From contig JAKZAN010000001.1 in assembly GCA_023053545.1 (NCBI GenBank), positions 5,848,565 to 5,912,564 of the forward strand: a stretch of 64,000 bases of DNA. Direction: 5' to 3'. Both the position numbers and the translations under genes were made by a program. The notes below the pieces were generated by a model, which saw only the letters and a list, made by a program, of their open reading frames with translations, made no database searches and was not told where the DNA came from. Source of the DNA: Lepidurus packardi (taxonomy: Eukaryota > Arthropoda > Branchiopoda > Notostraca > Triopsidae). Shown here in pieces: positions 35,434 through 38,400 of this stretch; within the stretch, counting starts at the first letter, position 1, and every line of letters starts with the position of its first letter.

Positions 35434-35438
35434 TTATT
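35433..35438 (-). terminator. Polyadenylation signal overlapping the AlaRS-GST stop codon
   Basis: On the minus strand the gene ends tggtacaaataaagttc. The AATAAA hexamer (35438-35433) contains the TAA stop (35436-35434), which implies a very short 3' UTR unless a downstream signal is used. Confidence 0.45.
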
Positions 35439-38400
35439 TGTACCAAGCATCGTGGCCTGGCGAAGATTCAATTTTATTTAGAATTGCAGCAACTTCCTTT
35501 TGGTGTACGACCGTATTGAGCCAACGGACGACATTGGAGTACGTTTTGACATTCGCGTTCTCGACGATCGTTTGGAAAGCGGGCAACAAAGCGATGGCCA
35601 AAGTGATATCTGCCAGCGTTATGGTTTCGCCCACCATGTACGTCTTCGTAAGAAGCGAGGCATTGAAACTCGCCAAAAGACGGTCCAATTCTTGTCGTAC
35701 TCGCTGCTGTTGTTTCGGTTGTGACTTCTCGGACAATAAAGGAAGCACTGCAGGCCAAACCTGGTTCTGTGCAATCGACATCCACTGTAAGATCTGCGCT
35801 TCTTGCAAAGCATTCTGGCCTTTAAGAACCTTCGGAGCTAAATACACGGCAATGGCATCAGCGTCCCACAAACTCACGCCTTGTTCTGTTGCCAAACCGG
35901 GCACCTGATCAGATAATTCTAATGAAACTGAAGTCTTTAATAATAAGAAAGTAAACAAAAACATAACGTAAATAAATACAACATAACATAAATAAAACAA
36001 TTATGGCTATAATAATAATAAATAATAATAATAGCATTAAAAAAAGTTTACTCAATGCGATTTTGAAAATACGTTACCTTTCCCAACAAAAACTGATTTT
36101 GGTAATCTGCAACAAGGTTACTCGATCCCAGCTCGAAGTTAAGTGAAACGGCAACAGTTTTGTTGGCATACTGAGCAGCGATGAGTCCAACCAAGCTCCT
36201 GGGATTGCCGGTGTTCGAGTATAGTGTAAGACCATTAGTAGAAGCGGCAATAGCAGTTGATGATGGACCATTAGTATCGGTGGCAGCAGCAGTTGCTGGT
36301 ATGCCCAACGCTTTTTCGGCGTAAGACCTTGCCAAACTCAGGGCTTGTGCTAATCCTGAAGGATTGTTGCCAGTCGCTTGGGCAGATTCAGGTCTTCCGC
36401 CGCCTTTGCCGTCCAAAACGGTGCTTACGGCATTAACCCACTCGTTCGCTTTCAAACCAGCATCAACTGAATTCTGTCAACAAAACAAAAAATATTAAAT
36501 AAAAAAAAATAGTAAACAAATCAAATGGAAACCATTCATTCCCTAAACTGATAACAGTAATCTTTTCCTTATTCTTTATACGAAATCAGTGAGATGTGAT
36601 GAATCGTACGCGATATTGCTGGCAATAACCGAACATTACGATTTGCTAAACAATGAAGTTCCTTGAGATCAATATTTCCTCTTTACATTAACAAACAAAG
36701 CTAGTATACCCCTTTCAATCTGTTCTAAATTACGTTGCATATTCCCACAATTAATTTCACAGTAAAAATTAGAAAAAAAAACGAAGCCTCTTTTTAGGAA
36801 TTCCTCGTTAAGAGAAGGTAATTAAGGTAAGTTAAGACAAGGAAAGATAATGACAGTTGTCCAGATCCTAAATACTTCGAAAACACGGAATTACTTTAGG
36901 ACAGGCTGCTAGGACAACGACTTTCTTGGCATCGTGATCAGCACTGAAGAAAATGGCAGGCATTTTAGGTACAAGAGCTTTGACTTGCTTCAAAGCTCCA
37001 TCCAAAGCTTTAGCGTTAGCACCAGCTTGGAATTCGTGGACAATGAAAGAAGCAGAAGGCGAATTCTGTACGAGTGATTTCGCAGCTTCTTCGGTGTTCT
37101 TAACCACAGCTGCCTTGGCAACGCGCTCTGCGTCATCCAGCTGCTTCTTCAAGGACTTCAACTGATTCCTGAGGTCATCCTACCAAAAAGAACCAAAAAA
37201 GTTCCATTAACGTACATTAGCTTTTTTACACGAAAAACTTACTTTTTTCCAATGAGCGATGGAAGCCTGTGAAATATCATCAGTCAAATCCACAATTTGT
37301 CTCACTGATCCCTTCAGACAAGTGGCATCTCCACCTTTGGCCACCTGAGCTGCCAGCTGAGACACTTCTTTCTCCAAAATTGCCGCCTTATGCAACGCCT
37401 AAACAAAATTTAAAGAATAAATAAAAACTTACACTGAAATGCAACTACAAATAACACAAAAAAACAAAAAACTTTTACTTTCGTGGCTTCAGGGCCAGTT
37501 AAACCAACCACGCGGCGTATACCTTTGGCAATAGCTTCTTCGCTGGCAATTACGAAATCACCAATATCTCCAGTGCGCAACAAATGCCTTAATTGGGTAA
37601 AAAAAAAGTAAAGGATTTAGAATTTTCAAGTTTTTTTTTTATGTATTTTTTAAATAACTTACGTGCCACCACAGAATTCAATGGAAGTCAAAGCACCAGC
37701 AGGACCGCTAGGATCAGATTCCAGTTGTTCTATCGGAATACCAACCGAAACTATGCGTACTGGATCCGGGTACGTTTCTTCAAACACTGCACGCAATCCT
37801 TGGATCGTTTTAGCAACAGCCAAAGACGCTTCGCGAGCGTAAACCGTATCGTTTTTGGAAATTAGCTTCACGGTAATGTCTTCCGCATTTTTCACTTGTT
37901 CAACTGTCATAGGCCCCTATCAAAGTGTCGTTTAATTTAATTTCTCATCTTCATTTATTTTTTTTATATAAAAATTTGTATTTTTTATATATATTTTATT
38001 TATATTCGAATTACTGATAAAAACTAACTTTGTTGGTAAAGTCGAATCGCAAACGATCAGGCGCTACCAATGATCCGCGTTGGTCCGCATCCACGCCGAG
38101 TACTTGTCTCAACGCATAGTTAAGTAGGTGGGTACCCGTGTGATTGTTCATCACTAAACGTCTGCGCTGTTCGTCTAGGTGCAAGTCAACTTCATCACCT
38201 ACTTTCAAGACGCCTTCCAAGTTGCCTACATGAACCACGTACCCGCCACGAACTTGCACGCTTTTCACTGTGAATTCCGTTTCCTAAACAATAAAATAGA
38301 ATAAAAACAAATTAATTTCCAATGCAAAGAGCAAAAAAAAGAAAAGAAAAAATACCTCATCTCCAACTTTAGAAATGAATCCTTCGTCAAAAATCTGCCC

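Follow-up and report, generated by a model that had tools for sequence, protein, structure and literature searches.

Why should an alanyl-tRNA synthetase (AlaRS) end in a glutathione S-transferase (GST) domain? The question is raised by a gene in a stretch of 64,000 nucleotides of the Lepidurus packardi genome (GenBank assembly GCA_023053545.1, contig JAKZAN010000001.1, positions 5,848,565 to 5,912,564; hereafter the window, to which coordinates refer unless a contig is named), where our splice model and Pfam matches place the whole coding region of a cytosolic AlaRS-GST at 35434..41182 on the minus strand. Fifteen coding exons, read from an ATG at 41182 to a TAA at 35436-35434 across introns that are all GT-AG (14/14), encode a protein of 1,199 amino acids in one frame. 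The best explanation, which we regard as reasonably probable as a whole, is that this enzyme, the only cytosolic AlaRS found in the genome, bears a GST tail derived from the gamma subunit of eEF1B, left by an ancestral fusion with whole gamma, and that the tail would dock AlaRS on eEF1B and allow Ala-tRNA to be handed over; the single origin, the docking partner and the hand-over are the parts that we infer.

The window protein contains the catalytic and tRNA-recognition region, the editing domain and C-Ala of a cytosolic AlaRS, together with what we take to be the class II and editing motifs. The families tRNA-synt_2c (E 6e-218), tRNA_SAD, DHHA1, GST_N, GST_C, Arc1p_N_like and GST_C_3 all exceeded their Pfam cut-offs in this one protein, which departs from the prototype form of AlaRS, without further appended domain, by the GST_N and GST_C at its C-terminus. 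Exon 14 (36078..36473, minus strand as are all segments of this gene) runs uninterrupted from the end of C-Ala (...AQATG) via a linker to the start of the GST (...FLLGK). The C-Ala (DHHA1) region lies at 36315..37398 (~aa 765-964; a boundary that we drew and kept in the identity table described below) in exons 12-14, with introns inside; it is followed by a Thr/Ser/Ala linker of ~28 residues at 36231..36314 (~aa 965-992, delimited as in the identity table) and by the first part of the GST, a thioredoxin-like subdomain, at 36078..36230 (aa 993-1043). A phase 0 intron at 35905..36077 separates FLLGK from VPGL, with which exon 15 (35434..35904) begins; this exon supplies the remaining thioredoxin-like subdomain and the all-helical GST_C up to the stop, and both parts of the GST were delimited by using the splice model, Pfam and a PDB match.

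An earlier interpretation made from the letters of this DNA (the sequence-only reading) had placed these exons at 36473-36078 and 35904-35434 with an LLGK/VPGL join and had called the GST complete; its coordinates and residues are correct, and both GST_N and GST_C pass the Pfam cut-offs. It had also held the fusion to be real, and we agree: an annotation merge is rejected because the C-Ala end and the GST start sit in one exon and one frame, and a merge in assembly or annotation is likewise ruled out by the same C-Ala/GST junction inside intron-free open reading frames that nearly fill their contigs in two relatives (P0004: 1,170 aa, longest contig 3,609 nt; P0007: 1,181 aa, 3,972 nt). These contigs look as expected for mRNA, from which they presumably derive.

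To place the fusion among relatives, scoring was applied to the 7,996 candidates with the most words in common, and the best 120 of 7,864 matches were examined. GST was present in 85 of the 120 (by a GST model derived exclusively from four free gammas), which rules out the fusion as a peculiarity of this genome, and 20 of these 85 had EF1G in addition (EF1G model), i.e. a whole eEF1B-gamma in proteins of ~1,400 residues. Counted with Pfam, GST_C was found in 83 of the best 120 and EF1G in 20; the two extra rows recognized by the GST model were P0021 and P0048. GST carriers include Blattella, Periplaneta, Schistocerca, Anabrus, Gryllus, Timema, Thrips palmi, Cuerna, Homalodisca, Macrosteles, Menopon, Polyplax, Neodiprion, Cephus, Nasonia, Bombus and Dinoponera and, among crustaceans, the barnacle Pollicipes (Thecostraca) and the krill Meganyctiphanes (Malacostraca). 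EF1G is kept in the cockroaches Blattella and Periplaneta, the katydid Anabrus, the cricket Gryllus and 16 further rows; the EF1G-bearing P0045 (identifier GFUD) we take to be a copepod. These AlaRS + GST + EF1G proteins, for which we found no published name, share the join and the GST with the window protein and differ in having kept EF1G, at ~1,400 aa; EF1G had no match in the window protein by Pfam, and tblastn found no remnant of it in the window. Tailed relatives are filed in databases as ordinary ‘alanine--tRNA ligase’, and records of that name with ~1,190 and ~1,400 aa are not necessarily products of merged models. The sequence-only reading had left it to be checked whether long AlaRS with a GST occur in other arthropods and are already described and widespread: they proved common among insects and crustaceans in the databases, and no description of them was found in the literature searched, so that its account holds for the fusion and falls short in missing the wide spread and the whole-gamma forms.

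GST was absent in 14/14 beetle-named rows among the best 120 (961-967 aa; Carabus 922), ordinary cytosolic AlaRS in comparison with which the window enzyme has ~230 more residues, and in the termites Zootermopsis (isoform X2) and Cryptotermes and two rows grouping with them. Short AlaRS forms from termites, the sawfly Athalia (isoform X2) and thrips (P0083, P0104, P0090, P0118, P0043 and P0058) end at or just before the GST start (e.g. NGPVLQ, NGPLLQ, DGPV), and cockroach, sawfly and thrips relatives of these species carry the tail; the short forms represent isoforms without the tail or else recent truncations. The named rows include no flies, moths, chelicerates or myriapods, as only the best 120 of 7,864 matches were viewed, and absence of the tail from these groups is not claimed.

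From which protein was the tail taken? The sequence-only reading had considered the GST closest to eEF1B-gamma, and this was borne out. The top PDB match of the tail was human eEF1B-gamma (E 1.4e-28, far beyond chance), followed by the putative GST 5f8b (2.4e-09), the GST 4o92 (6e-08), yeast eEF1B-gamma (2e-07) and AIMP3 (2.6e-05), with the GST of MetRS detectable too. A free eEF1B-gamma gene is present elsewhere in the genome, on contig C2 (L020), and is 37% identical to the tail over 201 aligned positions. This gene has an intron after FPLGK and before VPAF, in the position and phase (phase 0) of the tail intron between FLLGK and VPGL; we estimate the chance of such agreement at ~0.5% (3 introns in the free GST region, ~600 possible positions). 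Its coding exon 1 reads MAAG, and tail homology begins at exon 2 with TLY, which fits a joining of AlaRS to a neighboring gamma copy through exon 2 as the mechanism that may have produced the fusion. The predicted fold of a relative's tail (not that of the window protein) was also nearest eEF1B-gamma. These results show that the GST tail comes from the eEF1B-gamma gene: it has the N-terminal gamma-type GST and lacks the C-terminal EF1G, and it differs from free gamma (EEF1G) further in being fused to AlaRS, in a changed ES motif and in a longer tree branch. MetRS, GluProRS, CysRS and AIMP2/AIMP3 resemble it as translation proteins with a GST appended as a docking module; neither MetRS nor AIMP3 is as close to the AlaRS tail as eEF1B-gamma is, and GluProRS, CysRS and AIMP2 had no close PDB match listed.

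A search of the genome (108.6 Mb, 344 contigs) returned other AlaRS matches at C5:8942703 (29-50% identical), presumably the mitochondrial enzyme, and on C43, an intronless frame of 881 residues that is apparently bacterial. With these set aside, no cytosolic AlaRS other than the tailed enzyme was found. Contigs C43 and C53 carry intronless, bacterial-looking AlaRS and ValRS genes and C277 an intronless eEF1B-gamma unlike that of the host; these three contigs probably stem from contaminants or symbionts, as does C208, which may be foreign.

How often, and when, was the fusion made? A tail tree was built from 44 rows, comprising the window, 39 tails chosen for breadth (38 of the 85 GST-bearing rows plus P0005 from another search; P0048 is a partial protein) and four free gammas. 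A body tree of AlaRS, built by a quick method, held 55 rows (the window and 54 of the 120), and an EF1G tree held 15 of the 20 fused rows with 3 free rows. The window tail grouped with P0002, P0004, P0005 and P0007 (support 98/93), and placing it with the animal's own free gamma was rejected (p 0.0005; jointly with the four nearest tails, p 0.0097), which rules out a recent copy of that gene. In topology tests, a single clade of all 40 tails was not rejected (p 0.451), a single clade of the 14 EF1G-bearing tails was rejected (p 2.8e-73), and the fused EF1G as one clade was neither supported nor rejected (p 0.121). The body tree repeated the main groups of the tail tree (the window with P0002, P0004 and P0007; Hymenoptera; copepod-like rows; P0084/P0091/P0101; Orthoptera; cockroaches).

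The simplest history, which we favor without regarding it as proven, is one fusion with whole gamma in the pancrustacean ancestor followed by several losses of EF1G and by tail losses. A gamma copy, from its second exon on, would have been appended to AlaRS at its 3' end in the ancestor of hexapods and crustaceans, so that the first product would have been AlaRS with whole gamma (GST + EF1G); EF1G was probably lost repeatedly, and would have gone in several lines including that of the window, the tail itself being lost in some. Several separate gamma-AlaRS fusions in different orders, a history compatible with any function of the tail, would equally give EF1G-bearing tails that are not one clade (p 2.8e-73), and the unresolved deep branches of the tail tree leave room for them. 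We consider this improbable: one clade of 40 tails was not rejected, tail and body trees agree in their main groups, the window tail stands apart from the animal's own gamma, and the tails shown follow the same C-Ala end after linkers of varied length.

Is the tail maintained? In the identity table of the window against 13 chosen relatives, identity was 73-87% in the catalytic region, 64-70% in the editing domain and 42-62% in C-Ala; the linker was poorly conserved (11-26%), and GST-N reached 16-44% (the lowest value, 16%, being that of P0045 and all others ≥30%) and GST-C 31-42%. GST-C aligned over 108-114 of its 114 positions in these 13, nearly without gaps. At 109 columns identical in three free gammas, each column was kept by 50% of tails on average, and L132, D154, R182, W183 and Q190 (numbered by the animal's own gamma, from the T of TLY) were invariant in every one of the 40 tails with a letter there. 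Residue conservation of this kind shows the GST fold of the tail to be under constraint. One could still regard the tail as a relic of an old fusion under little constraint, partnerless and eroding line by line, as the scattered presence and absence of EF1G, a degraded thioredoxin-like half in several lines and the listed beetles and termites without a tail would suggest. This we rate as rather unlikely, given that the GST persists across both insects and crustaceans, that its identity (30-44%, with one value of 16%) exceeds that of the adjoining linker (11-26%) with GST_C nearly gap-free, and that L, D, R, W and Q are invariant at five columns in those of the 40 tails that have a letter there.

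A maintained GST might be an enzyme or a docking surface. The ES motif and the cis-proline loop of GSTs contribute to glutathione binding. In the window tail, DA (LWDADAIA) replaces the ES found before NAIA in free gamma, and this motif is altered in nearly all other tails shown; the LGKVP segment, which includes the presumed cis-proline, persists in the window tail and is missing from many others. A role of the tail as an active glutathione transferase, or as a redox sensor tying AlaRS activity or editing to glutathione, would agree with the presence of both GST_N and GST_C and with the window's LGKVP; with only the VP part of the glutathione site left beside a replaced ES, and LGKVP missing in many other tails, we think this very improbable. 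The shortening of the thioredoxin-like half and the altered ES in many lines, together with the DA of the window, speak for binding, not catalysis, and the tail would be a protein-binding module.

Two assemblies come into question as partners. Since the tail descends from eEF1B-gamma, the eEF1B complex is a likelier partner than the multisynthetase complex, and docking on eEF1B is proposed because a gamma-type GST sits on AlaRS while the animal's ValRS has no detectable GST: a region of 9.9 kb enclosing the presumed host ValRS gene of C4 gave no GST match (E up to 1), nor was there any GST_C match at that locus in the genome search. A ValRS candidate on C208, likewise without a GST match, was set aside as possibly foreign, and the C4 gene was used instead. 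Most likely, then, the tail would dock on the eEF1B guanine-nucleotide exchange complex, either at the N-terminal domains of eEF1B-alpha and eEF1B-delta or in a GST pair with free gamma, and the docked AlaRS would lie beside eEF1A, to which Ala-tRNA could be handed over directly. For eEF1B-alpha/delta of this genome, candidate exchange-domain exons lie at C6:5176510 and C5:1185839. Passages on human gamma describe it as a scaffold hosting alpha and beta/delta (PMC7160314). That Pancrustacea AlaRS is altogether a built-in subunit of the eEF1 exchange complex, linked covalently to the gamma scaffold and in some orders to all of gamma, with Ala-tRNA reaching eEF1A within one assembly, is a proposal that we put forward tentatively, as somewhat short of an even chance. 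If true, this built-in AlaRS-gamma assembly would parallel the vertebrate ValRS-eEF1 complex, independently and with another synthetase.

Vertebrate ValRS offers a working model, as a GST-bearing synthetase placed to meet eEF1A; it differs in being a class I enzyme of deuterostomes with an N-terminal GST, whereas AlaRS is class II with a C-terminal tail in arthropods and a predicted association. Fly AlaRS is presumably tailless, and for this reason the fly multisynthetase complex is no test of the other candidate partner. In the relevant sections of a 2015 review (PMC4394549), vertebrate ValRS joins eEF1 via its GST, an arrangement that could be restricted to deuterostomes, and the purified fly multisynthetase complex has the same nine synthetases as that of mammals (Arthropoda section). 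The same source has GST-like domains building the multisynthetase complex in animals and yeast, so that the tail might recruit AlaRS there via the GSTs of MetRS, GluProRS, AIMP2 or AIMP3; AIMP3 and the MetRS GST as detectable relatives in the PDB search and the Arc1p_N_like match in the window protein could be read in this sense. We regard this as unlikely, the tail being nearest eEF1B-gamma by sequence, by intron and by structure (the relative's model), and other arthropods keeping EF1G too, which points to the eEF1B complex.

Several observations weigh against docking as a general role, or against a single origin. The tail is dispensable over evolution, as the 14 beetle rows, two termites and two grouped rows without it attest, and many insects and copepod-like rows have lost part of the thioredoxin-like half. 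The window tail itself has V for R174, T for R149 and L for F184 (numbered by the animal's own gamma), three positions that 85-87% of tails conserve, so its docking face may have changed. The tail tree puts thrips with Macrosteles and away from Cuerna, and Orussus with Cephus, in disagreement with the body tree; it leaves two lice unpaired and places a partial Diploptera with Periplaneta instead of Blattella. Its inner branches are weak (15/41 starred), its outgroup branch is long and three of its free gammas are close, the body tree was made by a quick method, and the EF1G tree is too poorly resolved to be used (2/15 inner branches starred). The AlaRS-GST gene model of this species is drawn from genomic sequence.

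Passages of two recent papers describe AlaRS as the one synthetase kept in prototype form that never gained a domain (PMC10036535, PMC10485164), a view that an AlaRS/eEF1B-gamma fusion across insects and crustaceans contradicts. The GST list in AARS Online (2024) gives CysRS, GluRS-E, MetRS and ValRS only, without AlaRS, and no report of a GST or gamma fusion of AlaRS was found in the full-text literature searched (by titles and opening abstracts, with subscription literature largely absent); within these sources, the sequence-only reading was right to know of no described case. GST-bearing synthetases are known; AlaRS with a gamma-derived GST, in some orders with whole gamma, is a new form among them. 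Tailed, whole-gamma and tailless AlaRS, side by side in related animals such as bees, cockroaches and beetles, provide a natural test of tRNA channelling between synthetase and elongation factor.

Apart from the fusion, introns 2, 3 and 5 of the gene contain SNORD70-like C/D snoRNAs (40537..40624, 40213..40296 and 39264..39339, respectively, all minus strand) that match Rfam below the gathering score (36-41 against a cut-off of 50 bits; E 0.0007-0.008). All three share the identical 19-base stretch CGTCACTACCACTGAAAAA, and two of them share a 26-base exact pattern for which no further site was found in the genome when up to 2 mismatches were allowed. AlaRS appears to be a snoRNA host gene. Just upstream of AlaRS, an open frame at 42310-43722 (minus; 470 aa) contains repeated cysteine-rich units around QGPC, and its product is probably secreted. 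A second synthetase gene of the window has class I exons at about 22636-26300 (plus) and is, we assume, a mitochondrial leucyl-tRNA synthetase. Elsewhere in the genome, COX1-like stretches gave 41 matches, most of them with internal stops and many with internal TGA on the large contigs C1, C2, C4, C5 and C6, where they are frequent nuclear copies of mitochondrial DNA; some of the 41 lie on small contigs, possibly foreign, and at least 3 of those are without internal stops.
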